Positions 1,835-40,500 of a stretch of DNA of 49,419 bases are shown piece by piece (within the stretch, counting starts at the first letter, position 1; each line of letters starts with the position of its first letter). Below the pieces are notes generated by a model. The model was not told where the DNA came from and made no database searches. It saw only the letters and a program-made list of their open reading frames with translations. The position numbers and the translations under genes are program-made. The DNA comes from an uncultured Porphyromonadaceae bacterium. Lineage in GTDB: Bacteria > Bacteroidota > Bacteroidia > Bacteroidales > Muribaculaceae. Where the stretch lies: NCBI GenBank assembly GCA_947175495.1, contig CAMWNB010000014.1, forward strand, positions 1 through 49,419, written 5' to 3'.

Positions 1835-3253
1835 TTATTCGGCGGGGCGATAGTGCATGAGAGTGGAGAATCCGAGCTGGTCGAAGCCGCCGGAGTTGCC
1901 TCCGTAGTGGCCGCCACCGCCGTCGGCGCGGAACTGCTCGGCAATTTCCTTGACGTATTTGCCGGGAATGTTGTGGCTGTTGCAGTAGCCGGCCCAGATG
2001 TCCCATCCCGGACGGATGGTGCCGCGGCCTGCGCCGGAGATGGCGGTCATGATGCCGCCGTTGTAGGTGTACTCGGTGAAGGGGAGCGACGACTCGCTGT
2101 AGCGGAACGAGGTGCCGGAGAGGGTGGCGATGTCGTAGGACGAGCCTACTTCGGGGATGACTACGTTGTACTTTGCCACATACTGTGCGAAGGCGATGGC
2201 GCGGCCGTCCTCGAAGGCGAAGAGGTCTTCGCCGATGCCCATAGCCATCTGGCAGAACGCGCCGACCATGGCTGCGCAGAGGGTGTTGTGGCCCTGGTCG
2301 CGGCCGCTCTCGTTGCCCTGGGCGAGCTTTTCGCCGGAGCCGTCGGGGTCGTCGTAGACAGCGATGACGCCTTTGCGCATGATGCAGCCGGGGCCTTCGC
2401 CGTGCTTGAAGTGGAGGATGGCTTCGTTGACCATATCCTGGTTGTCGGCAAGGATGCCGATGGAGAGGATGGCGGTCATGGAAGCGAGGTCCCAGTTCAT
2501 CCACCAGTGGTCGGTGTTGTTCATGGCGATGAAGCGCGAGCAGAAGGGATAGAAATAGGTGGTCATCCAGTCGATCACTCCCTGGAAGCCTGCGCTGCGA
2601 CCCCAGTCGTTGTAGTCGCGCACGAGCTCGGCGGCGTTGGCTGCCTGGTGGATCTGGAACATGATGAGATACTCGTTGGAGTCGATCACGTCGTCTTTCC
2701 ATTTGTCGCGGCCCAGGAGGAGGCCCTTGTTGACGGCAGCCCAGTCCTCAAGAATCCTGATGGCCGCGGCTGCGGCCTGGCCGTCGCCTTCGAGCTGCCA
2801 TTTGAGACCGAGCTGATAGGCAGCGGCGCAGTCGCGGAAGAAGTTGGTGTAGTTGTTGTGGATGCCGGGATAGTACTCGTCGCGGAGGCCTGCGTCGTCC
2901 CAGCGGCCGCCGCCGCTGCCCCAGTTGTTGGCGTCGAGGCGCGCGAGATACTTGACGGGGCTTGCCGTGTAGGCCACGTTGCAGAACTGCGTGTTGGTGA
3001 CGAGCATATTGTAGGCGTCGCTCCATGGCTGCTGGCCGAGGTGTGCCTTGGTGTAGTCTATGTCGGCACGCGTGTGGAGCATGCAGGGATGGTTGAAGGT
3101 GTAGGTCTTGGGCTCGTACACCTTGAAGTCGGGCTCGGGCTCGGGGATTTCCCAGGAGTCGATGTCGGTCCAGCCGTCCTCGATTTCGGAGCATGCTGTG
3201 GCTCCGAAAGCTACGGCAGCGGCCGAGAGTATGATGGAAAATGCTTTTTTCAT
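1835..3253 (-). CDS. Alginate-lyase-superfamily polysaccharide lyase lipoprotein (PL38-like?)
   Basis: 472 residues. The N-terminus ends in a lipobox (GATAC) followed by SEIED, so it is a lipoprotein, probably on the surface or facing the periplasm. The rest is helix-rich, as expected for an alpha/alpha-barrel lyase. NNTDHWWMNWDLAS (about residues 245-258) matches the Asn-(Asn/His)-x-Tyr/Trp-Trp substrate-binding stretch of the alginate_lyase family (Pfam PF05426). ESGRDQGHNT (about 310-320) supplies an Arg and His where the family has catalytic Arg/His/Tyr. Lyases of this type cleave uronate-containing chains (alginate, glucuronan) by beta-elimination, leaving a 4,5-unsaturated uronate. The length and motifs suggest PL38, but I cannot separate this from PL5 or other relatives. 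It is the last gene of the susC operon, 82 bases after the Ig-repeat lipoprotein, and likely makes oligosaccharides for SusC/D import. Confidence 0.75.
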   Translation of the reverse strand: MKKAFSIILSAAAVAFGATACSEIEDGWTDIDSWEIPEPEPDFKVYEPKTYTFNHPCMLHTRADIDYTKAHLGQQPWSDAYNMLVTNTQFCNVAYTASPVKYLARLDANNWGSGGGRWDDAGLRDEYYPGIHNNYTNFFRDCAAAYQLGLKWQLEGDGQAAAAAIRILEDWAAVNKGLLLGRDKWKDDVIDSNEYLIMFQIHQAANAAELVRDYNDWGRSAGFQGVIDWMTTYFYPFCSRFIAMNNTDHWWMNWDLASMTAILSIGILADNQDMVNEAILHFKHGEGPGCIMRKGVIAVYDDPDGSGEKLAQGNESGRDQGHNTLCAAMVGAFCQMAMGIGEDLFAFEDGRAIAFAQYVAKYNVVIPEVGSSYDIATLSGTSFRYSESSLPFTEYTYNGGIMTAISGAGRGTIRPGWDIWAGYCNSHNIPGKYVKEIAEQFRADGGGGHYGGNSGGFDQLGFSTLMHYRPAE

Positions 3254-4767: not shown

Positions 4768-6480
4768 TTACCAGCGGGGGTTCTGCTTGAGGTTGGGGTT
4801 GAGCTGGAGCTGACTGGTGGGCAGCGGGAAGAGATAGTGCTTGGGAAGGAACTGGCGCTCGCTCTCGATGACGAGACGGCCGTCGGCGTTGACAGGCACG
4901 CCGGGGTTGGCCCATTTTTCCTGCCACTCGCCTGTCCACACGATGCCGGTGATGTCCATGGGCATTTCGGTCTCGGCTGTTTTCCAGCGGCGGAGGTCGT
5001 CGTAGCGGAAGCCTTCCTGAAAGAGTTCGAGGGTGCGCTCGCGGCGGATTTCCTCGCGCATGTCGAGGCCGTGGGTGTTTACGAATGCGTTGGACAGCAG
5101 GGGCATCTGCTTGTTCACGCGTGTGCGGGTGAGGTTGAGCGAGATGTTGAGGTCGTCGTCGCTGATCTGTCCGCCGTTGGCCTCGAAGGTGGCCTCGGCG
5201 TAGTTGAGGAGCACTTCGGCGTAGCGGAGCACGGGCCAGTCGAAGCTCTGCTGGCCGTCGAGCACGTTGCGCTCGGTGCACCATTTCTGGTGCCAGTAGC
5301 CTGTGCCTCCGCTGGGGATGGCGTTGCGTCTGGCTGCCGCTGCGATTTCGGCGTCGCTGCCGCTCCAGTCGATGCGGCTGTTCTGGTTGTTCCAGAAGTC
5401 GTCGCCGGGCTGGCAGAGGGTGTAGCGCATGCGGTGGTCGCGGTTCTGCCACTCGGAGGTGAGCTTGTCACGGCCCATGAACAGCGGCGATTTCTCGATG
5501 GGCAGACCGTCCTGGCAGAGGTACATGTCGGCGAACTTGGAGTTGACGCGCTGGTGCTGGAAGAAGATTTCGGTGGTGAGATTGCGGCCGATGGTCTTGA
5601 GTTCGGTGTCGAAGCAACGCTTGATGATGTACTCGTGGTTGTCGGCTTTGGTGAGGCCGGCGCCGTTGCACTGCACGTCCTCAAGGATGAACATGTACTT
5701 CTGCGATGCGTCGCCGAGGGCGGCGTTGTAGAAGAGCCAGAACTTGCCGCCGTCGATGACTGCCTTGGCGGCCTTGGCGGCTTCCGCGCAGAATGCACGG
5801 CCGCGTGTCTCGTCGTTCTTGTGGTTGATCTGCCATGTGCCTTCAAAGAGGCCTACGCGGCTGAGCAGTCCGAGGGCGCCTTCGCTGCCCACGCGGCCTT
5901 CGACGAGGTCGGCGGTGGGGCGGAGGAGCTCGCTGGCGGTCCAGAGGTCCTCGATGATGCGGTCGGCCACGAGAGCGCGGTCGTCACGTCCCTGGAACAG
6001 CAGGGGGCTGTCGGTGTCGATGGGTTCGAGCACGATGATGACGTCGCCGAACTTCTGGAGCAGCTGGAAATAGTTCCATGCGCGGAAGAAATAGGCTTCG
6101 CCGAGGGGCTGGCGGATGTCCTCCATGTTGCCGCCGAAACGCTCGGCGTTGCGGATGAGGAGGTTGCAGCGGCGGATGCGGTCGTAGGCGCCGGTGTAGT
6201 CGCCGTCGCTCTCGGGCACGGTGTGTATGCCCACGGACTGTGCGTCGCGTGCCTGGTCGTAGCTGATGAGGTCGCTGTGGCGGTCGCAGTGCACGTTGTC
6301 GGCATATACCATGCCGAAGTTGGGCAGCCAGTCGTAGAACTTGTTGGCAAAGAGCTGGAAGTCGCCGGCTTCGCTCCAGAGGTTGCTGTCGCTCACATCT
6401 TCCTTCGACACAAGGTCGAGGCAGGAAGAGGAAGCAAGAGCCATGGCAGCGATTGCCATATATTTAACTATGCGGTTCAT
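4768..6480 (-). CDS. susD: SusD/RagB-family nutrient-binding lipoprotein
   Basis: 570 residues. The lipobox ASSSC gives an N-terminal lipid-anchored Cys at residue 20. The helical TPR-like N-terminal half includes LIRNAERFGG and AYFFRAWNYFQLLQKFGDVI, the second being the family's A-x-F-x-R-A-x-x-Y-x-x-L signature. The C-terminal half has DWPVLRYAEVLLNYAEA and IRRERTLELFQEGFRYDDLR(R)W, both hallmark SusD motifs. SusD forms the lid over the SusC barrel and binds the oligosaccharide to be imported. It follows susC by 28 bases and precedes the Ig-repeat lipoprotein by 34. Confidence 0.95.
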   Translation of the reverse strand: MNRIVKYMAIAAMALASSSCLDLVSKEDVSDSNLWSEAGDFQLFANKFYDWLPNFGMVYADNVHCDRHSDLISYDQARDAQSVGIHTVPESDGDYTGAYDRIRRCNLLIRNAERFGGNMEDIRQPLGEAYFFRAWNYFQLLQKFGDVIIVLEPIDTDSPLLFQGRDDRALVADRIIEDLWTASELLRPTADLVEGRVGSEGALGLLSRVGLFEGTWQINHKNDETRGRAFCAEAAKAAKAVIDGGKFWLFYNAALGDASQKYMFILEDVQCNGAGLTKADNHEYIIKRCFDTELKTIGRNLTTEIFFQHQRVNSKFADMYLCQDGLPIEKSPLFMGRDKLTSEWQNRDHRMRYTLCQPGDDFWNNQNSRIDWSGSDAEIAAAARRNAIPSGGTGYWHQKWCTERNVLDGQQSFDWPVLRYAEVLLNYAEATFEANGGQISDDDLNISLNLTRTRVNKQMPLLSNAFVNTHGLDMREEIRRERTLELFQEGFRYDDLRRWKTAETEMPMDITGIVWTGEWQEKWANPGVPVNADGRLVIESERQFLPKHYLFPLPTSQLQLNPNLKQNPRW

Positions 6481-6508
6481 ATGCTGTTGTCGGTGTTATT
6501 CGTGTTTA

Positions 6509-9500
6509 TTAAAATGTAAGGTTTGCGCCGAAAGTCCATGTGCGCAGGAAGGGGTAGCGGCGGGAGTCGGTGATGCGGCGGTTGGCTTCGGGGTCCCAGT
6601 CGTCGGTGTTGCCTTTCCATTCCCAGAGGTCGGTGCCGGTGACGTAGAGACGCAGGTTGCTGATGACTTTCTGCTTGGCAAGCGCGGCTTTGGGGAGCGT
6701 GTAGCCTATGGTGAAGTTCTTCAGACGCAGGTACGAACCATCCTGCACGCTCCAGGAGGAGCACTGGTAGTTGTAGTCGTTGATGCTCGTCTGCATGGTG
6801 AGCGTGGGATAGCGGTTGTCGGGTGTTTCCTCGCTCCACACGTTGCCCACCCAGTGGTTGGATCCGTTCTGCCATGCGTTGCGCATGGGGATTCGCCAGG
6901 GGTCGGGGTCGTTGCCGGTGCCGGTGACGCGCCAGATGGTGCGCTTGGCCGCGCCCTGGAAGATGAAGTTCACGTCGAAGCCGTTCCATTCGGCGCCGAA
7001 GTTGAATGAGTACTGGATTTTGGGGTCGTCGGTGCCGAGGTACACGAGGTCGTCCTGGTTGATCTTGCCGTCGTTGTTGATGTCCTGGAACATGTTGTCG
7101 CCCACACGCACGAGCTGGATGTTGCCGGCGCCGCCGTAGTTCTCGCCGTAGCGTGCGATGTACTTCTCGAGAGTTTCTTCATTCTGGATTTTGCCGCAGT
7201 AGCGGTAGCCCCATACGGAGTTGAGGGGATAGCCTTCCTGGTCGCTGCGCACGCCTGCGCCGATGGCGCCGGAGCCGCCGTTGTCGAGAAGACGGTTCTC
7301 CACATATGTGAATGTGCCGCCGATGTGGTAGTTCACCTGACCGATGCGGTCGTTCCAGTTCACCTGGCCTTCGTAGCCCCATGCCTTGAACTTACCCTTG
7401 TTGGCCGTGGGCGCAGCGGCGCCGAGGATGCCGGGGTAGATTACGTCGATGAGCATGTTGTTGGTGCGCTTCCAGAAAGCTTCCACGGTGCCTGTGAGGC
7501 GGTTGTTGAAGAATCCGAAGTCGAGGGCGAGGTTGTAGTTGTGCACGCGCTCCCATGTGCGGTCGGTGCTGGGAAGGGTGCCTTTCACGTCCATGTTGCT
7601 GACGAGCTGTCCGCCGAGCAGGTTGCCGCCGGTGTTGTACATGGTGTAGAAGGTGACGCCGGAGTAGCGGTCGATACCGTTCTGGTTGCCGACGTTGCCG
7701 TAGGAGGCACGGAGCTTGAGTTCATTGATGTAGGGTCGCACGCCTTCCATGAATTTCTCCTCGGTGAGACGCCAGCCGAGCGATGTGCCCCAGAAGAAGG
7801 CCCAGCGGTTGGCAGCCTGGAATTTGGAGCTGCCGTCGTAGCGGAACTGGCCCTCGAGCATGTATTTGCTCTTGTAGTCGTAGTTGGCACGGCCGTAGTA
7901 GGAGAGGATGGATTCTTCCCACTTGCGGGGCGTGGAGAGACGCACTTCGCCCGAGCCATTGGGGATTTCGAGCGAGGGCTGGATGTCGAGGGTGCTGACG
8001 CCGAAGCCTTCGTATTGCTTCATGTTGTACTGCACGCCGCCCAGCAGGGTGAGGTTGTGGTCGTTGGCGAATGTCTTGTTCCAGTCGAGATAGCCCTGCA
8101 CGCTGTAGAAGTCGGTTGAGCTCTGCGTCTTCTCGTAGCTGTTGTCTTTCTTCAAGGGCGAAGTGAAGGCAAGTTCCTGGCCGTTGTAGCGGTAGAAGTC
8201 GATGCTGAGGGTCTGCTTGTCGCGCACGGCCTCGGAGTGGTTGTAGCCGAGCACCACGTTGGCGCGCAGGCCGTCGATGATTTCATAGCGCAGCGTCTCG
8301 CTGATGTTGACAGCGTTCACCTTGAGTTTGTTGTCGCCGCCGAGCTCAACGAGCCAGTTGGGCGTGCGCCACTGCTCGGCCCAGCCGTAGGGCTTGCCGT
8401 CGACGGTGCTGGTGGGGAAACCGGGCTGTGCCTGGCCCACGTTGAGTGCGGCGCCTATCTGCGAGGGAGCCACCTGGTCCTGACGGTTGTAGCCGATAAC
8501 ACTCTGCAGCGTCATGCCCTTCATGATCTGGAAGGTGTTGTTGAGTCGCATGTTGATGCGCTGGTTGTGGTTGTTGCCCCACTTGAGGTTGGAGTCGTCG
8601 TACATATAGCCGAGCGAGAAACGGAAGAGGTTCTTCTCGGTGCCGCCGCTGACGCTGAGTTCATGCTGCGTGCTCCATGAGTTGCCCCACATGACGTCCT
8701 GCCAGTCGGTGTCGAAGAACATCATCTCCGTCACGTTGGCCATGCCGAGGGGGTTGCCTGCGATCCACTGGTTGGTGTACATCTTGGCAAGGGTGGCGTA
8801 GCGCATCCAGGTGTCGGTCATGTTGTAGCCGTCGTTGCCGCGGCTTTCGAGGATGCCGTCGGCCCATTCCAGGAGGCTCATGCCCTGGTTCTGCAGGCCG
8901 ATGGTCTTATAAGTGAAGCTGCCGCTGTAGTCCACCTTCACCTTGCCTTCCTTGGCTTTCTTGGTGGTCACGAGCACAACGCCGCCTGCGGCCTTCGAAC
9001 CATAGATGGAGGCTGCGGCGTCCTTGAGGAAGTTCATGCTTTCGATGTCGGAAGGGTTGAGCAGGCGCAGCTCGTTGACGCTGTCGTACTCAACGCCGTC
9101 GATGATGACGAGCGGCTCGGAATTGTTCTTGGAGAAAGCGCCGCGCAGGCTCATGCCCCAGCTCTCGTCGCCGGGCGCGGAGCTCTGACGGGTGATGATG
9201 ACACCGGGCACCTGGCCCTGCAGGGCCTGCACGGGGCTGCTGAGGGTGCCTTTGTTTTCAAGCGACTTTTCGTCGACAACGGCCACAGAGCCGGTGAGTG
9301 TGGCTTTCTTCTGCGTGCCGTAGCCCACGACTACTACCTCGCTGAGCACTTCGGAATTTTCCTCAAGAGTGATATTGAGATGGTCGGAGGTTACGGGCAC
9401 TTCCTGTGTCTTCATTCCTACATAGCTGACGACAAGCGTCTTGCCTTTGAGATTCTTCAGGCTGAAGTTGCCGTCGATGTCGGTGATGGCCGACTGCGTG

Positions 9501-9706
9501 CTGCCTTTCACCACCACTGAAGCGCCGATGAGGGGCTCGCCGGTGGAGTCGGTCACAGTGCCACTCACGCTCTTCACTACAGATTCGGCAGCGGGCGCGG
9601 GTGCGGGCGCTGCGAAGACGTCGGCAGGCGAGGCAGCCATCATGGCGGTGGTGGCCATGGCGATCAGCGCCGCGCGCGACAGTCTGTTTCTACTGTTGTC
9701 ATTCAT
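6509..9706 (-). CDS. susC: SusC/RagA-family TonB-dependent outer-membrane transporter
   Basis: 1065 residues. Order: signal peptide (about 1-33); carboxypeptidase-regulatory-like beta-sandwich (about 46-120, with GTVTDSTGEPLIGASVVVKG); the SusC signature VVVGYGTQKKATLTGSV; plug domain with DPSDIESMNFLKDAAA-like text and AASIYGSKAAGGVVLVTTK; then a large beta-barrel ending in Phe (TFGANLTF). It imports oligosaccharides in a complex with SusD using TonB energy. There is no N-terminal STN signalling domain, so it does not look like a classic transducer for an anti-sigma factor even though an ECF sigma gene lies 48 bases upstream on the same strand. I could not find a canonical TAnnTTTG promoter in that 48-base gap. 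Confidence 0.96.
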   Translation of the reverse strand: MNDNSRNRLSRAALIAMATTAMMAASPADVFAAPAPAPAAESVVKSVSGTVTDSTGEPLIGASVVVKGSTQSAITDIDGNFSLKNLKGKTLVVSYVGMKTQEVPVTSDHLNITLEENSEVLSEVVVVGYGTQKKATLTGSVAVVDEKSLENKGTLSSPVQALQGQVPGVIITRQSSAPGDESWGMSLRGAFSKNNSEPLVIIDGVEYDSVNELRLLNPSDIESMNFLKDAAASIYGSKAAGGVVLVTTKKAKEGKVKVDYSGSFTYKTIGLQNQGMSLLEWADGILESRGNDGYNMTDTWMRYATLAKMYTNQWIAGNPLGMANVTEMMFFDTDWQDVMWGNSWSTQHELSVSGGTEKNLFRFSLGYMYDDSNLKWGNNHNQRINMRLNNTFQIMKGMTLQSVIGYNRQDQVAPSQIGAALNVGQAQPGFPTSTVDGKPYGWAEQWRTPNWLVELGGDNKLKVNAVNISETLRYEIIDGLRANVVLGYNHSEAVRDKQTLSIDFYRYNGQELAFTSPLKKDNSYEKTQSSTDFYSVQGYLDWNKTFANDHNLTLLGGVQYNMKQYEGFGVSTLDIQPSLEIPNGSGEVRLSTPRKWEESILSYYGRANYDYKSKYMLEGQFRYDGSSKFQAANRWAFFWGTSLGWRLTEEKFMEGVRPYINELKLRASYGNVGNQNGIDRYSGVTFYTMYNTGGNLLGGQLVSNMDVKGTLPSTDRTWERVHNYNLALDFGFFNNRLTGTVEAFWKRTNNMLIDVIYPGILGAAAPTANKGKFKAWGYEGQVNWNDRIGQVNYHIGGTFTYVENRLLDNGGSGAIGAGVRSDQEGYPLNSVWGYRYCGKIQNEETLEKYIARYGENYGGAGNIQLVRVGDNMFQDINNDGKINQDDLVYLGTDDPKIQYSFNFGAEWNGFDVNFIFQGAAKRTIWRVTGTGNDPDPWRIPMRNAWQNGSNHWVGNVWSEETPDNRYPTLTMQTSINDYNYQCSSWSVQDGSYLRLKNFTIGYTLPKAALAKQKVISNLRLYVTGTDLWEWKGNTDDWDPEANRRITDSRRYPFLRTWTFGANLTF

Positions 9707-13366: not shown

Positions 13367-14584
13367 TCACTTTTTTGCAACAAGATTGTCACCGTTTTCA
13401 GCTTTTTTAAGTCGATTCAGGGCTTCTATATAATAATAATCGGCATAAATTATGGATGCGTCTATTTCCGAGCCGGCAGGATGATGGCCGACGGAATGCA
13501 GCAGGAACGAGTCGTTGCGGTCGCCGCTGCGGTAGGCGTCGCCGCCAAGAGAGGCGAGCATCTTGCGCGAAGCATCATGATAGCGGGCGGCGCGGTCCTT
13601 GTCGGCATAGCCCTCGAGCTCGAGCAGAGCGGAGGCCACGACTGCTGCGGCAGAGGCGTCACGGGGAGCGTCAAGGCCGCGGGGATCGTCGAAGTCCCAT
13701 AGGGGCACGCTGTCGTCGGGAAGGCGGTCGAGATAAACATCGGCCACCTTGCAGGCAAAGTCGAGAAAACGCTGGTCGCGTGTCTCGCGGTAGACCACCG
13801 TGTAGCCGTATATAGCCCATGCCTGTCCGCGGGCCCACATGGAACTGTCGTCATAGCCCTGGTGGGTGCATCCGCGCAGGAAATTTCCGGTCTCGGAATC
13901 GTACACCGCCACATGGTAGCAGCTGCCGTCGGGGCGGAAATGGTGGCGCATGGTGGTTTCGGCATGGCTCACGGCGATGTCGTAGCAGTAGGGGTTGCCG
14001 CCGTTCTTGGCAGCGAAGAACAGCATCTCAAGGTTAATCATGGTGTCCATGATGGTGTTGTGGCCGCCATAGTCCTTGACGTGGCGCGGCCATGCGAGCA
14101 ACGTGCCCACGGCGGGATTGAAGAGCGTGGCCAGCGAGTCGGCCGCGTTCACGATTACCTTGCGGTAGTGGTCGTCGCCTGTAAGACGATAAGCGTTGCC
14201 GAAGCTGCAGTACATCAGAAATCCGAGATCGTGGTCGAACACCGGCTTGTCCAGAATGGGTTCGAGACGTCGCGTGGCCTCAGCGGCAGCGTCGCGCACG
14301 GCGGGGTCGCGTGAGTATTCGTAATCGTACCACAACACTCCGGGCCAGAAGCCGCTGCACCACTCCTCGGCGCAGATGGGACGACAGGCCCAGTGGCGGG
14401 CATCGCCCTCGATGTTGCGCGGCATCACGGTGGAATCGGCCGGCAGGTGTGCCAGTGCCTCTCGTACTTTCTCGTTGCAGTAGGCCAGATCAGCTTCGGG
14501 ATCCGGCTCGGCGGTCTTGCCCATGGAAGCGCAGCCAGCAAGGGCGAGAGCCATCAGTGAATATACTACTTTGTTGTATCTCAT
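13367..14584 (-). CDS. GH88 unsaturated glucuronyl hydrolase lipoprotein
   Basis: 405 residues. Lipobox LALAGC (Cys18), so anchored in a membrane rather than cytosolic as in Bacillus. The alpha6/alpha6 barrel motifs of GH88 are present: EEWCSGFWPGVLWY (about 73-86), FDHDLGFLMY with Asp119, HNTIMDTMINLEML with Asp180, and GYDDSSMWARGQAWAIYGY. Asp119 and Asp180 match the two catalytic Asp of Bacillus UGL (Asp88, Asp149 from memory). The enzyme hydrates the enol ether of 4,5-unsaturated uronate left by lyases, releasing a sugar plus 4-deoxy-5-keto-uronate, which is the substrate of KduI. It is third in the lyase-GH97-GH88 operon, 19 bases after GH97. Which linkage or sugar it prefers is not visible. 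Confidence 0.92.
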   Translation of the reverse strand: MRYNKVVYSLMALALAGCASMGKTAEPDPEADLAYCNEKVREALAHLPADSTVMPRNIEGDARHWACRPICAEEWCSGFWPGVLWYDYEYSRDPAVRDAAAEATRRLEPILDKPVFDHDLGFLMYCSFGNAYRLTGDDHYRKVIVNAADSLATLFNPAVGTLLAWPRHVKDYGGHNTIMDTMINLEMLFFAAKNGGNPYCYDIAVSHAETTMRHHFRPDGSCYHVAVYDSETGNFLRGCTHQGYDDSSMWARGQAWAIYGYTVVYRETRDQRFLDFACKVADVYLDRLPDDSVPLWDFDDPRGLDAPRDASAAAVVASALLELEGYADKDRAARYHDASRKMLASLGGDAYRSGDRNDSFLLHSVGHHPAGSEIDASIIYADYYYIEALNRLKKAENGDNLVAKK

Positions 14585-16578: not shown

Positions 16579-18825
16579 CTATTTTGTTTCCGCTATTCTA
16601 TAATATCTGCGGGAGTCGGGGCGGCAGGCCATGCCGTTCAGAGTAATGCCGGATGATGGAGAGCGCAGGCTGAACCGCATACGAGGCTGGCCGTTCACCT
16701 CGGCGCGCGGAGCTTTTCCGTCAAGGCCGGAGGCAAGCACGTTGAGTTTGGCAAGCGACGAGAACCACACGTCGCCGTCGCGGCGCACCGAACTGCCGTG
16801 GACAATGGCCATGTCCTTGCCGCCGTCGGTGACGGCCAGCATGTAGGCGTCGGTGGTCCAGCCGTCGGCTTCTATCCACGAGTTGAGGTGCATCAGACGA
16901 CCGTCGGCCAGCTGGTTGATGTAAAGGTCGGTGGTCTTGCCGCCCTGGGTGATGCGCAGGCCAATCCAGTTTTTGCCTTCGCGGCGGGTGATTTCCACGT
17001 CCTTCGGGTCGTCGAGGATTATGGCCGTGACAGCCTTCACCCGGTCGGTGACCATGGGCAGGCGCAGGCTCCAGTATTCCTCGGTGCCGTCGAGCTTTTC
17101 GGTGGGTCCTTCGAGCACCTCCCAGTAGAGCATCTCGGGATAGTCGTGCACGAAGTTGCTCGGAGCGAGGGGCTGGGGATAAAGCGGGCGTATGGTGGCG
17201 CGGGCGTCGCCGTTGGTGATCTCTATGTCGCCGCCGCGCTTGCGCGTCGTGCCGCCCGGGTGCCACAGCCATTCCCATCGGCCGGGCTCATGGCTGTGGA
17301 GATCGTCTATCACCAGCAACACCTTGCCGAGCCAAAGATAGTGGCGCTGGTTGCGGTCGAGCAGGTGCGACATGGGGCCGGTGCCGTCGGCCATCACATA
17401 TTTAGTGTCGCCGCCGTCGAGCAGATTGTGCAGCGAGCCCGGCAGCGACGCGCCGTGGTACTGCTGATACGTCGGCTGGCCCTGGCCGTTGAATTTGACC
17501 ACGTTGTGGGCGTCGCTCTGGAAGAAATATTTACGATACTCGGGTTTGCCGTAGGAGCAGTTGCCCGCATCCTTTATTATGTCCACGCCTTTGTGGAAAA
17601 GTATCATAGAGTTGGCGTCGGCGTGGGAGTGATTCCATGTGGCGCCGCTTTTCACGGCCAGCATGGTGGCGTCAGGCTCCCAGCCGTTGCGCATGGTGGC
17701 CCAGCCGAAGTCGCTCCACAGCTTCGACAGCGGCAGCGACGGCGTGGCGGGCGCCTTGCTGATGTCGGGCATATAGAGCAGGCCCATGGGGAAGTTGACG
17801 GTCATGCCCTCGCGGTGCTGGCCGGGGTGCACCTGCGCGGCGTACCACAGCGTGGCGGGGTCTTTCACGCCCATGGCATAGGCCAGCAGCATGGAGCCTT
17901 CGCCGGTGACGTTCTTGTGGCTGTCGCCGAAGTTGATGCTGTGCAGCTCGCCCGTGCGGGGATAGCACACATGGGAGAAGAAGTCGGGCAGTTGCTCCAT
18001 CTGGGGAATGTCGGGGAGTTTCTCGCCGGGGTGGGAGTTAAGCCACGCCAGACGCAGCAGCAGGGCCTCGGTGATGCCGAAGCTGGCATAGTTGATGCTT
18101 TCGTACATGCCGCCGGCACGGTCGAATGTGCGTGGTTTCTGCTGCACGGCATCGCCGGCGAAGTCGAACCACTCGGGCAGCGCGTCCACAGCCATGCGGG
18201 CGGCCTCGGCTGCCTCCGGCAGTTCGTTGGAAATGGCCAGGGCGAGCACGCCGCCCATGCACACGCATGAGGTCCACCAGTTGTGGCCCATGGAGTTGAG
18301 TGAATGGATGCGGGTGGGCTCCAGCAGCCAGTCGCCGAGCAGAGGTTCGCCAGCCAGGCGCCACACGCCGCGGGCTATGCGGCTGCGTTCGGCAGGGGTA
18401 AGGCGGTCGTACACGGCATCGTAGGCCAGGGCGATGCGGAATGCCCTGTGGGCCATCTGCAGCTCGCTGCGCCACTGCGGGTCGCGCGCCATCATCTCTG
18501 CGTCGGACCAGGAGGGCGTATCGGCCACTTTCAGCAACATCGCACGCAGCTTGTCGGCATACTTTTTGTCGCCGGTCCACTGATAGGCCAGTGCGATATG
18601 GTCCATCATCATCACGTTATTGCGCTCAAGCTGAGCGTCGGCTTCGGCTATGATGGCGGCAGCGGCAGCGGCACGCACGGTGTCGGCAGCGGCAGCCTTC
18701 CTGGCAGCGGCCACGCGCTCGGGGGTGAACAGCAGCGAGGGATGCTGGATGTTGCGTGCGCCGGCGCCGCAGGCGGCAGCCAAAAGCACGGCTATCGTCA
18801 GAATTATGCGTGATGTGACTTTCAT
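16579..18825 (-). CDS. Heparinase II/III-family polysaccharide lyase
   Basis: 748 residues. The signal peptide runs to about residue 23 (AACGAGARN; a lipobox-like LLAAAC is also possible). The N-terminal (alpha/alpha) toroid contains SMGHNWWTS (Asn/His pair, about 174-182) and AGGMYESINYASFG, with the Tyr expected as catalytic base. The Hepar_II_III beta-sheet part (about 370-640) has TWNHSHADANSMILF, the metal-binding His pair, and QSDAHNVV. The family eliminates glycosidic bonds next to uronates in heparin/heparosan, hyaluronan, alginate or ulvan, often exolytically on oligosaccharides. The PL subfamily cannot be fixed by eye. It is first in the minus-strand lyase-GH97-GH88 operon, diverging from the gltD-kdu operon. 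I saw no clean TAnnTTTG promoter before it. Confidence 0.85.
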   Translation of the reverse strand: MKVTSRIILTIAVLLAAACGAGARNIQHPSLLFTPERVAAARKAAAADTVRAAAAAAIIAEADAQLERNNVMMMDHIALAYQWTGDKKYADKLRAMLLKVADTPSWSDAEMMARDPQWRSELQMAHRAFRIALAYDAVYDRLTPAERSRIARGVWRLAGEPLLGDWLLEPTRIHSLNSMGHNWWTSCVCMGGVLALAISNELPEAAEAARMAVDALPEWFDFAGDAVQQKPRTFDRAGGMYESINYASFGITEALLLRLAWLNSHPGEKLPDIPQMEQLPDFFSHVCYPRTGELHSINFGDSHKNVTGEGSMLLAYAMGVKDPATLWYAAQVHPGQHREGMTVNFPMGLLYMPDISKAPATPSLPLSKLWSDFGWATMRNGWEPDATMLAVKSGATWNHSHADANSMILFHKGVDIIKDAGNCSYGKPEYRKYFFQSDAHNVVKFNGQGQPTYQQYHGASLPGSLHNLLDGGDTKYVMADGTGPMSHLLDRNQRHYLWLGKVLLVIDDLHSHEPGRWEWLWHPGGTTRKRGGDIEITNGDARATIRPLYPQPLAPSNFVHDYPEMLYWEVLEGPTEKLDGTEEYWSLRLPMVTDRVKAVTAIILDDPKDVEITRREGKNWIGLRITQGGKTTDLYINQLADGRLMHLNSWIEADGWTTDAYMLAVTDGGKDMAIVHGSSVRRDGDVWFSSLAKLNVLASGLDGKAPRAEVNGQPRMRFSLRSPSSGITLNGMACRPDSRRYYRIAETK

Positions 18826-18943: not shown

Positions 18944-20254
18944 ATGGAAAACAAAGACTACACAATGGCGGAGGCTATCCGCGAGGCCAAGCGATGCCTG
19001 GGATGCAAAGTGCCCCAGTGCCGCAAGGGTTGCCCCATCAGCAACGACATCCCCGCATGGATTCACGAATTGTCGATGGGCAACCTCGGCAATGCCATGG
19101 CCATAATCAACCTGCGCAGCAATCTTCCGGCCGTGTGCGGCCGCGTGTGCGCCCACGAGCGCCAGTGCGAAGGCCACTGCGTGCTCGGCAAACAGGGAGC
19201 ACATATAAATATAGGTAAACTCGAACGCTTCGTTTCGGACTTCGACAGCGACATGCGCCTTACTCGCGAGAACATCGTGCAAAAGGACCGCGGACGCGTG
19301 GCCGTAATCGGCAGCGGACCGGCCGGCCTCACCGTGGCCGGCGAACTCGCCCGCAAAGGCGTGGCCGTGGAGATTTTCGAGATGGAGCCGGAGGCCGGCG
19401 GCGTGCTCATGTTCGGCATCCCCGAGTACCGCCTGCCCAAGGAAGTGGTGCGCAAGGAAATAGCCAAGATACAGCAACTCGGAGTGACGGTGCGCTGCGG
19501 AGTCACAATCGGCGTGGACTACACCGTCGACGACCTCTTCGCACAGGGTTTCGACGCCATATTCATGGGCACAGGCACAGGCAAGCCGCGACGTCTCGGC
19601 GTGCCGGGCGAGAATCTGTGGGGCGTGCGCTACGCCCTGTGGTTTCTGCGCCGCGTAAGCCTCTGGCGCGAAGGCTTTATCGGACGCGATGAGGTGATTG
19701 TGCGCGAAGGCGACCGCGTGTTTGTGGTCGGCTGCGGCAACACGGCCATGGACGCCGCCCGCACGGCAGTGCGCCTCGGGGCGTCGGAAGTCACCATCCT
19801 CTACCACCGCGACATCGAACGCATGGCCGCGCTCCGCTCGGAGTACGACGAAGCCGTGGCCGAGGGTGTGAAATTCTGCTGGAACACATCAATAAAGAAC
19901 ATCCACGACACCGACGGCACTCTCGACGCCATCGTACTCGACACGCCCGAAGGCGAGCGCATCGTGCCTGCCGACAAGGTGATAATGGCCGTGGGCAGCT
20001 CGCCGGCCGCCCGCATCGTCAGCACCACCGAAGGCATCGATGTGAACGAGCGCGGCTATGTGATCACACGCGAAGTGCCCTATGGCATGAGCACCCGACG
20101 CGGCGTCTTCGCCGGCGGCGACGTCACCGGCAACCAGGCCACCGTCGTGCATGCCATGCAGGACGCGCGCCGCGTGGCCGAAGGCATGCTGGCCTATCTC
20201 GACGCAATCAAGCTCTTTGAAGCAATCGACAATAAAGACAATAAAAACATATAA
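18944..20254 (+). CDS. gltD: GltD-like NADPH/FAD/Fe-S oxidoreductase small subunit
   Basis: 436 residues with the glutamate synthase small-subunit architecture. The N-terminal cluster domain has Cys18, 21, 26 and 30 (CLGCKVPQCRKGCP) and a second set in CGRVCAHERQCEGHC. The FAD motif VIGSGPAGL (about 126) is followed by EAGGVLMFGIPEYRLPK, an NADP-binding VVGCGNTAMDAARTA, and a C-terminal GGDVTGNQATVV FAD segment. In the classic enzyme it passes NADPH electrons to the large GltB subunit. No gltB or other flavoprotein partner is in this window. It leads the operon, 6 bases before kduD. It may supply or take electrons in the uronate pathway or may simply be a stand-alone GltD with its partner elsewhere. 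No signal peptide, so cytosolic. Confidence 0.85.
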   Translation: MENKDYTMAEAIREAKRCLGCKVPQCRKGCPISNDIPAWIHELSMGNLGNAMAIINLRSNLPAVCGRVCAHERQCEGHCVLGKQGAHINIGKLERFVSDFDSDMRLTRENIVQKDRGRVAVIGSGPAGLTVAGELARKGVAVEIFEMEPEAGGVLMFGIPEYRLPKEVVRKEIAKIQQLGVTVRCGVTIGVDYTVDDLFAQGFDAIFMGTGTGKPRRLGVPGENLWGVRYALWFLRRVSLWREGFIGRDEVIVREGDRVFVVGCGNTAMDAARTAVRLGASEVTILYHRDIERMAALRSEYDEAVAEGVKFCWNTSIKNIHDTDGTLDAIVLDTPEGERIVPADKVIMAVGSSPAARIVSTTEGIDVNERGYVITREVPYGMSTRRGVFAGGDVTGNQATVVHAMQDARRVAEGMLAYLDAIKLFEAIDNKDNKNI

Positions 20255-20260
20255 TAATTT

Positions 20261-21055
20261 ATGGTGAATTTTTCTCTCGAAGGCAAAGTGGCCTTAGTCA
20301 CCGGCGCCGCCTACGGCATCGGTCTCGCTATCGCTCAGGCATTCGCCGAAGCAGGCGCTAAAATCGTGTTCAACTGCTCGCGCCAGGAAACCGTGGACCG
20401 CGGACTGGCTGCTTATAAGGAACTCGGCATCGACGCCAAAGGCTATCTCTGCGACGTCACCGACGAACAGGCCGTCAAGGCCATGGTGGCCGACATAGAG
20501 AAGACCGTCGGCACCATCGACATTCTCGTCAACAACGCCGGCATCATCAAGCGCATCCCCATGGAGGAGATGGCCGTAGAGGACTTCCGCCGCGTGATCG
20601 ACGTCGACCTCGTGGCCCCCTACATCTGCGCCAAGGCTGTAATTCCCGGAATGATAAAGAAAGGCCACGGCAAAATCATCAACATCTGCTCCATGATGAG
20701 CGAGCTTGGCCGCGAGACCGTCAGCGCCTACGCCGCCGCAAAGGGCGGACTGAAGATGCTCACCCGCAACATCTGCTCCGAGTACGGCGAGCACAATATC
20801 CAGTGCAACGGCATCGGTCCGGGCTACATCGCCACAGAACAGACCGCACCCCTGCGCGAAATTCAGCCCGACGGTTCGCGCCATCCTTTCGACCGCTTCA
20901 TCATCTCCAAAACGCCCGCCGCACGCTGGGGCACGCCCGAGGACCTCATGGGACCCGCCGTGTTCCTCGCTTCAGACGCTTCGGATTTCGTTAACGGACA
21001 GGTGCTGTACGTCGACGGCGGCATCCTCGCCTACATCGGCAAGCAACCCAAATGA
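20261..21055 (+). CDS. kduD: KduD-like SDR, 2-dehydro-3-deoxy-gluconate dehydrogenase
   Basis: 264-residue classical short-chain dehydrogenase. The Rossmann motif GAAYGIG (TGxxxGxG type, with Ala in place of the usual first Gly region) is at 15-22. NNAG is near 93, the catalytic Ser is in ICSMMSELG (about 143) and the Tyr-x-x-x-Lys pair is YAAAK (about 158-162). PGYIATEQT and the C-terminal DGGILA are also typical. Many Bacteroidales relatives are labelled gluconate 5-dehydrogenase. Two genes from kduI, the natural reading is interconversion of 2,5-diketo-3-deoxygluconate and KDG with NAD(P)H. Its stop codon overlaps the next start (ATGA). No signal peptide, so it acts in the cytosol, unlike the KduI of this operon. 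Confidence 0.88.
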   Translation: MVNFSLEGKVALVTGAAYGIGLAIAQAFAEAGAKIVFNCSRQETVDRGLAAYKELGIDAKGYLCDVTDEQAVKAMVADIEKTVGTIDILVNNAGIIKRIPMEEMAVEDFRRVIDVDLVAPYICAKAVIPGMIKKGHGKIINICSMMSELGRETVSAYAAAKGGLKMLTRNICSEYGEHNIQCNGIGPGYIATEQTAPLREIQPDGSRHPFDRFIISKTPAARWGTPEDLMGPAVFLASDASDFVNGQVLYVDGGILAYIGKQPK

Positions 21056-22179
21056 TGCGCTTCACAGCCCTCTGCGCGGCGGCTGCCGCCGCGCTGCTGC
21101 TGGGCGCCTGCCGACAGCACGCACACGAAATCGCCGTGACCAACGACAGCGACCTCGACCGCACGGCCGAGATTGTCGAGGTGCCACTCGCGGCCATCCC
21201 CGTGGCGCAACCTTTCTGCATTGTCGGCGGCGCCGACACTCCGGAGGTGCCCTATCAGATAACCCACGACAGCCTGCTCATCTTCCCGGCCGATGTGGCT
21301 GCGCGCTCGACGGCGGTCTACATGATTGTGCCCGGAGAACCGGCAGCGACAGACACCATAGCCTGGGGACGCCTGTTCCCCGAGCGAAAGGACGACATGG
21401 CCTGGGAAAACGACCGCGCCGCCTACCGCGCCTACGGGCCTGCGCTGCAGGCCTCGGGCGAACGAGCCTTCGGCTACGACATCTGGACCAAGTGCGTGCC
21501 CTTCCGCGTACTTGAGAAGCGAATGGCCGACGACATCGAGCGCGGCATTTCCTTCCATGTGGACCACGGCGAGGGCATGGACGTATATGCCGTAGGGCCC
21601 ACTCTCGGCGGCGGCACTGCGGCACTGCTCGACTCGGCAGGCACCATCCTGTATCCCTGGTGTTTCAGCGGATATGAGGTGCTCGACCGCGGCCCGCTGC
21701 GCTTCACCGTGCGCCTCACCTACCCCGACTCCACCCGCGAAAGCCGCATTATCTCGCTCGATGCGGGCTCGTGGCTCAACCGCACCACCGTGCGCTACGA
21801 CGGCGCTGTGCCGGCCGCTGCGTCCGTAGCTCCCGGCATCGTGGTGCATGCGCAGAATCCCGAAGGCTACACCCTCGGCGAGGGCTATATGGCCTACGCC
21901 GACAGCACCGACAACGCCTCGGCCGGCAACGGCGTGATATTCGTGGGCGTGGTGGCTCCGCAGGCCGCCGGCTTCGCCTATCACCCTCTCGCCGAGCCTG
22001 CCGGCGACGCCATAGGCCACATCCTGGCCACGTCGCCCTACACTGCAGGCAGCGACTATACCTACTGGTGGGGTTCGGCATGGAGCAAGGGCGGCATGCC
22101 CGATGCCGATGCCTGGAACGCCACACTCGCCGACTTTCACACCCGCGTGACTCACCCTCTCACCGTAACCGTCAGATAA
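21052..22179 (+). CDS. DUF4861-like lipoprotein
   Basis: 375 residues starting MMRFTALCAAAAAALLLGAC, a clear lipoprotein signal with lipobox LGAC. The body is beta-rich, with PYQITHDSLLIFPADVAARS, RKDDMAWENDRAAYRAYGP, GYDIWTKC, SFHVDHGEGMDVYAVGPTLG and a C-terminal YTYWWGSAWSKGGM. I recognise this as the DUF4861 family, often found with uronate-polysaccharide genes; its activity is not known to me. The WENDR-AYR-YGP and HVDHGEGMD stretches hold acidic and His residues that could form a sugar or active site. It overlaps kduD by 4 bases (ATG inside ATGA) and precedes the transporter by 4, so it is translationally coupled. The location implies periplasmic handling of the unsaturated or keto-uronate before import. 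Confidence 0.75.
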   Translation: MMRFTALCAAAAAALLLGACRQHAHEIAVTNDSDLDRTAEIVEVPLAAIPVAQPFCIVGGADTPEVPYQITHDSLLIFPADVAARSTAVYMIVPGEPAATDTIAWGRLFPERKDDMAWENDRAAYRAYGPALQASGERAFGYDIWTKCVPFRVLEKRMADDIERGISFHVDHGEGMDVYAVGPTLGGGTAALLDSAGTILYPWCFSGYEVLDRGPLRFTVRLTYPDSTRESRIISLDAGSWLNRTTVRYDGAVPAAASVAPGIVVHAQNPEGYTLGEGYMAYADSTDNASAGNGVIFVGVVAPQAAGFAYHPLAEPAGDAIGHILATSPYTAGSDYTYWWGSAWSKGGMPDADAWNATLADFHTRVTHPLTVTVR

Positions 22180-22183
22180 CATC

Positions 22184-23605
22184 ATGGAAGAAGTTTTCAA
22201 ATACATAATCGGCCTGGGCGCCGCGGTGATGATGCCCGTCATCTTCACCATCCTCGGCGTCTGCATAGGCATTCGTCCCGGCGACGCGCTCAAGTCGGGT
22301 CTTAAGGTGGGCGTCGGTTTTGTAGGCCTCTCAATCGTCACCGCACTGCTCACCTCCGCCCTCGGACCGGCGCTCAACACCGTGGTCGACATCTACGACC
22401 TGCAGCTCCACGTCTTCGACATGGGATGGCCCGCAGCGGCCGCCGTGGCCTACAACACCGCAGTCGGAGCATTCATCATCCCCGTGTGTCTCGGAGTCAA
22501 CATCCTCATGCTCGTCACAAAGACCACGCGCACCGTCAACATCGACCTCTGGAACTACTGGCATTTCGCTTTCATCGGAGCCGTCATCTACTTCGCATGC
22601 GACTCGCTGGCGTGGGGTTTCTTCGGCGCCATCATCTGCTACATCATCACGCTCATCATCGCCGACATCACCGCAAAGCGCTTCCAGCGTTTCTACAAGG
22701 ATATGGACGGCATCAGCATCCCGCAGCCTTTTTGCGCCGGCTTCGTGCCCTTCGCATGGGCCATAAGCAAGGGCCTTGACAAAATCCCGGGCATCTGCCG
22801 CCTCGAAATCGACGCCGAGGGCATGAAGAAAAAATTCGGACTGCTCGGCGAGCCGCTCTTCCTCGGCGTTGTCGTGGGTGTGGCCATCGGATGCCTCACA
22901 TGCACCTCCGGAGCGGAAATCGTCGATCGCATCCCCTACATCCTCGGACTCGGCATCAAGATGGGCGCCGTCATGGAACTAATTCCGCGCGTCACCGTGC
23001 TGTTCATCGAGGGTCTCAAGCCCATCTCCGACGCCACGCGCAGCCTCATCGCCCGCAAGTTCAAGGGCGCCGACGGCCTCAACATCGGCATGAGCCCCGC
23101 GCTCGTCATCGGCCATCCCACCACCCTTGTGGTGTCGCTGCTGCTCATCCCCGTGGTTCTCTTCCTTGCCGTCGTTCTCCCCGGCAACCAGTTCCTGCCC
23201 CTGGCGTCGCTCGCCGGCATGTTCTATGTGTTCCCCCTCGTGCTGCCCTACACCAAGGGCAACGTGCTGAAGACATTCATTACGGGCCTCGTCGTAGTGG
23301 TGCTCGGCCTGTATATGGTCACCAACATTTCCTCATGGTTCACTCTTGCCGCCCGGGACGTCTTCGCCGCCACCGGCGACAGCGCAGTGGCCATACCCGC
23401 AGGATTCAGCGGAGGCTCGCTCGACTTTGCCGGCAGCCCGCTCGCATGGGTAATCTTCCAACTCACGCACGGTCTGAAATGGATAGGCGCAGGCGCGCTC
23501 GTGCTCGTCGCCATGGGCATGATGTGGTGGAACCGCGTCCACATCATCCGCAACCAGAAAGCCATGGAGGCCGCCAACTCTACTGAAATACAATCTACAG
23601 AATAA
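22184..23605 (+). CDS. Orphan GatC-type PTS EIIC permease
   Basis: 473 residues with about ten or more membrane helices. It begins [23 protein letters not shown] and contains the EIIC-gat features [41 protein letters not shown] and [15 protein letters not shown]. GatC proteins are the membrane subunit of galactitol-type phosphotransferase systems. No EIIA, EIIB, HPr or EI gene is here, and Bacteroidales generally lack a working sugar PTS (general knowledge). It therefore probably acts as a facilitator or ion-coupled permease without phosphorylation. Its place between the DUF4861 lipoprotein and exported KduI makes 2,5-diketo-3-deoxygluconate, or another keto-uronate, the likely substrate. Its stop overlaps the kduI start (TAATG). 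Confidence 0.85.
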
Positions 23606-24528
23606 TGAAAAAGACAATCATCGCCCTCGCCCTGGCCGCCGCAACCACGCTCGGCGCCACGGCAAAAACCAATTACACCATACTCCGCGCCTGCCATCCC
23701 GACGACGTGAAGCACTACGACACCGAGCAGCTGCGCTCCCGCTTCGTGATGCCCACCGTGATGGAGGAAAACGTCATCAACCTCACCTACTCCATGTACG
23801 ACCGCATCATATATGGCGGTGTCGTGCCCGTGGGACAGACTGTCGAGCTCGAGACCATCGACCCGCTCAAGGCCGAGTACTTCCTCGAACGCCGCGAGCT
23901 CGGAGTGGTCAACGTCGGCGCCCCCGGCATCGTGTCGGTCGACGGCAAGGAATATGAGCTCGGCTTCAAGGACGCACTCTATGTGGGCCGCGGCAACAAG
24001 CAGGTGACATTCCGCAGCAAGGACAACGCCGCGCCCGCCATGTTCTACCTCAACAGCACGCCCGCCCACAAGGCCTACAAGACGCAACTCGTCACCATCG
24101 ACGGACGCAAGGGCTCCATCAAGGCCAACCGCATCAAAGCCGGCAAGATGGAGGAAAGCAACGACCGCATCATCAACCAGCTCATCGTCAGCAACGTGCT
24201 TGAAGAGGGTCCCTGCCAGCTGCAGATGGGCCTGACCGAGCTCATGCCCGGCAGCGTGTGGAACACCATGCCGGCCCACACCCACGACCGACGCGTGGAG
24301 TGCTACTTCTATTTCAACGTGCCCGAAGGCAACGCCATCTGCCATCTCATGGGCGAGCCGCAGCAGAACCGCCTTGTGTGGCTCCACAACATGCAGGCCG
24401 TCATGGCCCCCGAGTGGAGCATCCACGCCGCAGCCGGCACCTCCAACTACATGTTCATCTGGGGCATGGGAGGCGAAAATCTCGACTACGGCGACATGGA
24501 CAAAGTCTCCTACCTCGAAATGCGCTGA
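23605..24528 (+). CDS. kduI: KduI, 5-keto-4-deoxyuronate isomerase with signal peptide
   Basis: 307 residues; usual KduI is about 278. The extra N-terminus reads [20 protein letters not shown]: two Lys, a hydrophobic run and an ATA site (cleavage after residue 20), that is, a Sec signal peptide. Homology to E. coli KduI starts at about residue 24. The cupin metal ligands are all present: His225, His227, Glu232 ([11 protein letters not shown]) and His274 (WSIHAAAG), together with [14 protein letters not shown] and FIWGMGGEN. The enzyme isomerises 5-keto-4-deoxyuronate to 2,5-diketo-3-deoxygluconate, normally in the cytosol; here the export signal puts it in the periplasm. The TAATG overlap with the permease fixes this start, and no internal Met near residue 24 would give a cytosolic form. 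Last gene of the operon, followed by a strong terminator. Confidence 0.93.
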
Positions 24529-37431: not shown

Positions 37432-37457
37432 CATTACACCAATAATTCACATCATAA

Positions 37458-37487
37458 TGTATGGACGCACCGGGGTGCGTCCATACA
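37458..37487. repeat. REP-like perfect palindrome
   Basis: A perfect 14-bp inverted repeat (TGTATGGACGCACC at 37458-37471, complement at 37474-37487) with a 2-nt centre lies in the 145-base gap inside the cobalamin operon. No T run follows. GGACGCAC-centred palindromes of this look are, to my memory, dispersed in many Bacteroidales genomes, so this may be a REP-type repeat; it could also tune expression of the downstream genes. Confidence 0.75.
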
Positions 37488-37576
37488 ATCCGCGTACAGC
37501 TCACAGCTTTATACCGCAAAACATTTACAAAAATAAAATAACATACCAAACCAATCACCATCCCAAAAACATCACT

Positions 37577-40500
37577 ATGAAAAAAGTTTTGTTTAGCCTC
37601 GGAGCGGCACTTTTCTGCACCTCACAGGCGATGGCTTACGACTTCATGGAAGGCGGTCTGGCTTACAATAAGCTGACCGACACCACAGTCGAAGTCACAT
37701 TCAAGGGTGCGGACTACAACAGCGGCAAGGATTACACCGACGCTGCTTATGTGATTCCGTCCGAGGTGGCCAACGGAGGCGTCACCTACACTGTCACCCG
37801 CATCGGCGACAGCGCCTTCTACGGTTCCGTCGTTCAATCCATCACCCTCCCGGAGAGCGTAACCGAGATTTTAGATTTCGCCTTCGGCAACTGCCGCAAC
37901 CTCAAGGAGCTCACGTTCCCCTCCGGCATTACTGCATTCCCCAACTTCGCACTGCCCCTTAGCAACAGCAGCGCGCTGGAAAAACTCACCATAAACTGCG
38001 ACCCCGCGAAGGTCTCCGGCAAGATATTCACCGAGGCCGGCAGTCTGCCCAATCTGAAGGAACTGGTGTTCGGCCCCTATCTGCAGGAGGTCAGCGCCGC
38101 AGCCGTAAGCTATTGGGCCAACGGCACCGAGACCCTCACCATCGCCGCCGGCGATGGCACGCTGAAATGCGACCCCGCCGCCTTCGAGCGCTGGACCATG
38201 ACCACGCTCAACATTGACCGCCCCGTGGAGCTCACCGTCCCGGACAATGTGAAAGACATTGCCGAGATACACATCGGCGACATCGAGCCCTTCACCACCG
38301 TGGCCATGAACTCGGCCAACTATACCACCGCCAAGCTCTATGTGCCCGGCGCACGCGTGGCAACCTACAAGGCCACGGAGCCGTGGAGCAACTTCGCCAC
38401 TATCCTGCCGGAGCCCGGAACAGAAGTAGCCGACCAGACATACGGCTTCAACTACACACTGAACGAGGCCGACAACACGGCCGAAATCATCGCCGCCGAC
38501 AACGTGGTCGACCCCTACACCGGCGACATCGAGATTCCCGCCACCATAGTGGTGGGCGGCAAGAGCTACACCGTCACCAGCATAGGCATGTACGCCTTCC
38601 GGGAGTGCGACATAACAAGCGTCAAGCTCCCCGCCACCATCAAGGAGATCAAAAATGGCGCGTTCTTCTGGTGCACCGATTTGGCTGAGGTCGAACTCAA
38701 CCAGGGCCTTGAGAAACTCAACTACGACGTATTCGCCGGCACCAAGTCGCTCAAAACCATCGTCATCCCCGGCACCGTTAAGAATCTGCCCGGCGGCAAC
38801 AGCTTCGCCAACAGCGGACTCACCACAGTGGTACTCGAGGAAGGCGTCGAGACCATCGAAGGCGACTTCAACGGCTGCACGGCACTCAACCGCGTGATGC
38901 TGCCCTCCACTCTCAAGGAGATAGGCCGGTCGACATTCGAAGGCTGCACGGCACTCAAATACATCGACATCCCCTCGTCGGTGCGCAACATCTATGGTCT
39001 TGCATTCGCAGGAACGGGTATCACCGAATTTGTGCTGCCCGAAGGCCTGCTGACACTGCAGGACCAGGCACTCGGCCAGATGAACGGCGCACTCAACTCC
39101 GACTACACGCTCAAAAGCGTGACGCTGCCCGCGTCGCTCACCGCGCTCAGCTACATGACCTTCAACAACGCCTGCGGCATCACCGAGCTGACCGTCAACG
39201 GCAACGGCACTCCCGTGACCGTGACCGGCAATATCCCCGCCAACCTGCTCAACACGCCTACGTCCGTCAGCGGCGTAGCGCCGCTTGAGACGCTCTATCT
39301 GAACCGCACGTTTGTCAACGGAAGCAGCACCGACATCACCTCCACCATCTTCGACCGCAAGACCACGCTCAAGAACGTGACCTTCGGCCCGGACATGACC
39401 ACCGTGCCCGCGCTGCCCTCCTGCACCGCCATCGAAAGCATCACCGTCAGCGGCAACGCCGTGCCCGCCGTAAGCGGCACGGGCTACTCCGCCGAGACCT
39501 ACGCCAACGCCGTGCTCAACGTGCCCCACGGCATGAGCGCCGCGTTCCGCGCACATGAAGTGTGGGGCAAGTTCGCTCACATCGAGGAAGATGCCGCCAT
39601 CAGCGCCATCGATGCTGCCAAGGTGCGCCACACCGTGGGCACCGGCGCCAACAAGTACATCTTCGCGCTGGCCTTCAACAACGCCAACCGCCTCGACAAC
39701 CTCGTGTGGGGCGTAGCCAGCGATAACGCCGCCCTCACCGCCGGCGAGGCCATCGCCATCATCGCCGACGCCGACCCGCGCCTGCAACTAACCACAGATG
39801 GCGAAGGCAACGTGACGGCCGCCGCATTCGACCTCGACGGCAACGGCGTCTTCGACATCAAGGACACCGCCGCCGAAGGCGACTGGAACACCGGCAAACG
39901 CATGCTGGCATCCGACGGCACCACCAAGGTGCTCTCCATCTGCCACGCAGCCACCACAGCGGCCGACGCACCCTACTACTTCTACCTTCCCGCCCCCGAC
40001 GCCCAAGGCGTGTGGGTGCCCGAGGCCATGACCGTCAAGCTCAGCGACGAAGGCTTCATCCTGCCCGTGCTCGTTCAGCCTCAGGGCAAAACCGTGACCC
40101 TGACTACCAACTGGCAGGCATCGTCGAGCAACACAAGCTACCGCCTCGACCGAAACATCGTTGTCACGCCCTACACATTCCAGGACGGATCGTACCACGC
40201 CCGTCCCACATTCACAGGCAAGACCGGCACCACCTACATGCGCTATCGTCCCATAGTGGGCAGCAGCTACATCGAATCGAACTTCATGACGCTCACCGTA
40301 GAGGCCCCCGAGGTGCCCGTGACGGCCATCATCCTTGCTGAAAGCGAGATCAACGCAGGCCGCAACAAGACCGTCGACGTAGACTACACTTTCGAGCCCG
40401 CCAATGCCACCTACACCGCCGTCGCAATGACGGTTGAAAACACATCGGTTGCCTCCTATTCGGCCACGACCGGCCTAAAGACCAACAAAATAGACGGTAC

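Follow-up and report, generated by a model that had tools for sequence, protein, structure and literature searches.

KduI, the 5-dehydro-4-deoxy-D-glucuronate isomerase, is normally described as a cytoplasmic enzyme of uronic-acid breakdown. Among the closest described systems are the kduI-dhuD clusters of Bacteroidota, in which, according to the available part of the report, the isomerase and reductase genes adjoin (PMC12838403); in that part the word 'signal' is absent and 'periplasm' occurs once, for oligomers in Dickeya. In GAG use by Bacteroides thetaiotaomicron, GH88 frees the same keto-uronate as the one considered here, and that keto-uronate enters cytoplasmic metabolism directly, as stated in the available part of the report (PMC6994673). 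Export of KduI is not mentioned in the available parts of PMC12838403, PMC6994673, PMC12269599, PMC7953866, PMC13274419 and PMC8072126, and among the matches listed from the openly licensed PMC literature we found no report of an exported KduI or of its link to an EIIC-GAT permease.

Here we describe a kduI gene whose product carries a predicted export signal and which lies directly behind a gene for an EIIC-GAT permease. The window, that is, the whole stretch of 49,419 nucleotides that was analysed, lies on contig 14 of a 2.34-Mb genome (completeness 95.8%) of an uncultured member of the Muribaculaceae. By comparing the gene, its neighbours and its N-terminus across the family and the order, we hypothesize that the isomerisation takes place outside the inner membrane and that the permease imports the product.

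The kduI gene and its surroundings

The KduI open reading frame starts with ATG and encodes 307 amino acids; it scores far above the cut-offs of its two models (Table 1) and is the sole match to PF04962 in a profile search of the genome. Its ATG shares one base with the stop codon of the permease gene (TAATG), and the nearest in-frame upstream stop lies six codons before it. The first alternative in-frame start among ATG, GTG and TTG is a GTG at codon 35, within conserved sequence, and therefore no cytosolic start is available. Residue 27 aligns with residue 6 of the E. coli enzyme (1x8m), which makes the extension about 21 residues long; the sequence after the first 20 residues corresponds to the extreme N-terminus of signal-less KduI proteins, many of which in this order begin MKTNYE, where the signal of the window's protein ends. 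A sequence-only reading of this DNA had called the frame a KduI, had seen no room for a cytosolic start and had put the N-terminal extension at about 23 residues: the first two calls hold, and the extension is present at a slightly shorter length. Conversion of DKI to DKII by the exported protein can be expected with good confidence.

Table 1. Features in and around the kduI gene run, with window positions; scores are given against the cut-off of each model.
Feature	Position	Strand	Model or motif
Alginate-lyase-like protein, export-type N-terminus (loose signal rule)	1835..3253	-	PF05426 (32.1 vs 22.2)
SusD + SusC pair of adjoining polysaccharide utilisation locus	4768..9706	-	PF07980, PF07715
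GH88 (unsaturated uronyl hydrolase family)	13367..14584	-	PF07470 (48.7 vs 26.6); lipobox LAGC by eye
Heparinase II/III-type protein, export-type N-terminus (loose signal rule)	16579..18825	-	PF07940 (66.8 vs 24)
GltD-like NAD(P)H oxidoreductase, head of gene run	18944..20254	+	PF14691, PF07992
SDR dehydrogenase, proposed cytosolic KduD/DhuD role	20261..21055	+	NF005488, gluconate 5-dehydrogenase (499.9 vs 369)
DUF4861 / BT3233-family protein	21052..22179	+	PF16153 (265 vs 22.3), NF058564 (344.9 vs 320); lipobox LLGAC by eye
EIIC-GAT (GatC-like) permease	22184..23605	+	PF03611 (262.2 bits vs 24.2)
KduI with N-terminal export signal	23605..24528	+	ORF; NF002091, NCBIfam (385.8 bits vs 250); PF04962 (74.3 vs 23.9)
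Predicted Sec/SPI signal peptide of KduI, residues 1-20	23605..23664	+	KK, hydrophobic run, ATA before K21

The adjoining minus-strand locus joins the SusCD pair, the lyase-like and heparinase-type proteins and a GH97 to the GH88, so that an unsaturated uronate, and from it DKI, can be expected to form on the outer side of the inner membrane. That GH88 is a lipoprotein, as had been proposed from the sequence, agrees with its Pfam match and lipobox. Further along the window, a 1704-aa ORF at 37457-42571 looks by eye like a repeat-rich surface protein, and the protein at 42568-43953 has a stretch similar to it.

The GltD-like oxidoreductase at the head of the plus-strand run is a stand-alone protein; in 17 of 50 loci with an exported KduI a GltD-like match, in some cases only 37-41% identical, lies within 7 kb. 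Over the same distance KduD is found in 37 of 50 loci and DUF4861 in only 15, so that DUF4861 is not a fixed part of the locus. This protein has a mutarotase-like fold. At L068:2130-4763 and L109:1505-4114, and in a third case, L110, a DUF4861 part that bears a lipoprotein-like signal continues in one reading frame into EIIC-GAT; the fusions suggest that DUF4861 works at the outer entrance of the permease. Where permease and KduI stand apart, a sugar kinase and a KDPG aldolase are present in 18 of 19 loci, between the two genes in all eight such loci read. In the genome of the window this pair stands side by side elsewhere.

These neighbours allow a route to be proposed. GH88 would free the keto-uronate (DKI) in the periplasm, where exported KduI would turn it into 3-deoxy-D-glycero-2,5-hexodiulosonate (DKII); the EIIC-GAT permease, perhaps aided in some loci by DUF4861, would bring DKII in without PTS phosphorylation. 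The SDR, in the role of KduD/DhuD, would then reduce DKII to KDG, which the KDG kinase and KDPG aldolase would convert to pyruvate and glyceraldehyde 3-phosphate; the N-termini of KduD, kinase and aldolase give no strict signal call, and these enzymes would thus finish the route in the cytosol. We consider this model as a whole, with periplasmic formation of DKII, PTS-free import and cytosolic completion, moderately probable.

An exported KduI could instead act in vivo on another uronate, such as saturated glucuronate or galacturonate, with the permease importing the keto-uronate for the SDR. In E. coli, KduI/KduD have a side activity of this kind. The SDR of the window, by cut-off, fits gluconate 5-dehydrogenase and not kduD (TIGR01832: 230.4 vs 338.85). 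Against this, the GH88 and lyase-like genes of the neighbouring locus point to DKI, the gene run of relatives retains a KDG-type kinase together with KDPG aldolase, and the protein exceeds the cut-off of the KduI equivalog model by a wide margin, which together make a different substrate unlikely.

The permease and its company with exported KduI

The permease falls below the galactitol-specific PTS IIC model TIGR00827 (385.4 vs 542.2). A search of the 95.8%-complete genome for two PTS partners, HPr (PF00381) and PTS IIB (PF02302), gave no match; the same models matched 7 of 14 and 6 of 14 controls, respectively. With neither HPr nor IIB found, a normal PTS function of the permease is therefore unlikely.

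The distribution of the permease follows that of the exported KduI closely. EIIC-GAT was found in 7 of 80 KduI-bearing genomes, and these are the seven that carry an exported KduI (G000, G526, G647, G837, G896, G867 and G766); none was found in the 73 genomes with only signal-less KduI. A sample of 295 genomes of the order contained it in eight, all with exported KduI (the eighth, beyond those just listed, is G013), and gave no match in the other 287. Within the family, KduI was matched in 93 of 297 genomes; 88 had both genes, five KduI only, three the permease only and 201 neither, in counts that exclude two permease matches below cut-off. Four of the five KduI-only genomes hold KduI fragments, and the fifth (G121, 85% complete) has a full KduI with signal, with no permease found. 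The permease is thus almost confined to genomes with exported KduI.

The two genes are also neighbours. Of 55 distinct loci whose KduI bears the signal and whose sequence extends 3.6 kb or more upstream of the KduI midpoint, 54 have the permease upstream on the same strand. None of the 14 signal-less loci that offer 2.3 kb or more of upstream sequence has it (another 148 have flanks too short to judge linkage), and in 13 of these 14 KduD lies within 1.4 kb. Two genomes, G766 and G867, carry both forms of KduI, with the permease beside the exported form only: permease and KduD adjoin the exported KduI, and KduD and DUF4861 adjoin the signal-less one. These two genomes belong to one genus (L181 with L183, L182 with L184), and with an SDR of its own for each KduI form they offer natural paired controls. 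The sequence-only reading had proposed a survey for the same extension beside GatC-type genes, and its outcome was strongly positive.

This near-constant company suggests that the permease takes up the product of KduI. That DKII is its cargo is the weakest step of the model, and we consider it about as likely as not. Exported KduI might make DKII while the permease imports DKI, KDG or another sugar, linked to it merely by a shared utilisation locus, and the one exception to the linkage fits such a reading: in L047 (genome G114) the permease is on another contig, and a SusCD locus precedes the exported KduI, which has the same sequence as that of L021 and is followed by a sugar kinase and KDPG aldolase (L047:9001-11660). 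A link through the locus alone is nevertheless quite improbable, given that EIIC-GAT was found neither in the 73 signal-less-only genomes nor in the remainder of the order sample, and that it is absent from every flanked signal-less locus. Returning to DKII as the cargo, we tentatively propose that exported KduI and a PTS-free EIIC-GAT carrier form one uptake module of a divided pathway, to which the mutarotase-like DUF4861 lipoprotein, where present, may contribute by presenting the right ring form; a role of DUF4861 in uptake would accord with the fusions described above, but its presence near only 15 of 50 loci makes the proposal slightly less probable.

The genomes counted here are related to one another. 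A quick tree was built from 85 of 260 distinct KduI sequences (24 of the 94 with at least 70% identity to the KduI of the window and 61 of the 166 more distant ones), and its signal-bearing members look like one clade: 26 signal-bearing rows group together with an SH-aLRT of 99, L143 and L144 standing apart, and after removal of 13 long or distant rows all 28 signal-bearing rows fall on one side of a branch with support of 92. In the simplest reading, signal and permease were gained together once. The genomes are then not independent witnesses, and since a single event and shared descent may underlie the co-occurrence, Fisher p-values overstate it.

The N-terminal signal and its conservation

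The sequence-only reading had further proposed a Sec-type signal peptide on KduI and the presence of all four metal ligands, and the comparison of homologues upholds both. KduI N-termini were read in the window and in 289 loci, 290 sources in all, of which 260 were distinct, and signals were called by purpose-made rules based on n-region charge, a hydrophobic run and small residues at -3/-1. A signal is present in all 94 distinct KduI proteins of at least 70% identity to that of the window, a set that leans to near relatives (best 80 of 399 loci); below 70% identity it is present in 4 of 166 (L143 and L144, of one genus, L177 and L178). The strict rule yields identical numbers for both sets. 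Signal peptides of the close set begin 36-41 residues before a common anchor, and the usual ATG of signal-less KduI below 70% identity lies 15-20 residues before it. Further loci of the family all pass as well (20 of 20, six of them new sequences).

Within the 94, pairwise identity is 35% in the signal columns and 84% over residues 38-306, and the mean hydropathy of the signal core ranges from 1.7 to 3.0. The signal sequence drifts and its hydrophobic property is kept, and the constancy of the signal among the 94, the gap in identity and the still hydrophobic core together argue that it is more than a chance feature. A Q follows the predicted cleavage site in 79 of 92 parsed sequences, two of the 94 being unparsed. 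The signal of L172 ends directly before the Q that is chain residue 2 of PDB 9kd0, which reads QVNYKM from there; this suggests that the mature form was the one expressed for 9kd0.

We conclude that KduI is very probably exported via Sec to the periplasm, which is the most strongly supported step of the model, and its signal would be cleaved and the enzyme located and active outside the inner membrane. It might be objected that the N-terminus is no working signal and that KduI is cytosolic or membrane-tethered, as the calls come from rules made for the purpose. Such a reading seems very unlikely when every close homologue keeps the signal, when the start of the 9kd0 chain (QVNYK from residue 2) coincides with the end of the L172 signal and a Q so often follows the site, and when the strict rule gave no positive among 242 cytosolic controls (0 of 148 KduD, 0 of 57 KdgK and 0 of 37 KdgA) and 21 positives among 25 DUF4861 proteins; the looser rule was positive in 12 of 148 KduD. 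A loss of catalysis in exported KduI, with sugar binding or signalling as its role instead, is hardly credible, as the protein is the only one of its family in the genome and positions 225, 227, 232 and 274 read H, H, E and H, which we take from E. coli KduI to be the cupin metal ligands and which are kept in 98, 97, 98 and 98 of 98 signal-bearing homologues.

Meaning and relation to known systems

What is new beyond the earlier reading is a genome in which HPr and IIB were not found and a permease tied to exported KduI, in a pattern stronger than first stated. If the proposal is true, a step described as cytosolic in the catabolism of glycosaminoglycan, pectin and alginate-type uronates would lie on the other side of the inner membrane in the Muribaculaceae, a large family of the gut, and in some other members of the order. 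An orphan PTS-type EIIC-GAT, in bacteria seemingly without a PTS, would gain a role as a diketo acid carrier, and the way in which a reactive keto-uronate formed beyond the inner membrane gets into the cell would be explained.

The permease shares PF03611 with the PTS galactitol permease GatC (PDB 9u82), which it matches over most of its length (phmmer E 1e-82), but it differs in scoring under the galactitol cut-off (385 vs 542) and in a genome where no HPr or IIB was found. The best PDB match to the KduI of the window is 9kd0_A (E 2e-150), a KduI near to the signal-bearing clade and closer still to L172; among the matches listed from the openly licensed literature no paper on 9kd0 was found. 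Unlike the protein of the window, the 9kd0 chain is without the signal. The kduI-dhuD clusters of Bacteroidota, so far as the available part of their description goes (PMC12838403), comprise the same two enzymatic steps, whereas the order in the window is reductase, DUF4861, permease, isomerase. Canonical E. coli KduI (1x8m/1xru) resembles the KduI of the window in near full-length homology, metal ligands and equivalog score, but it begins about 21 residues further along and lacks an export signal, whereas the signal of the window's protein is conserved across its clade.
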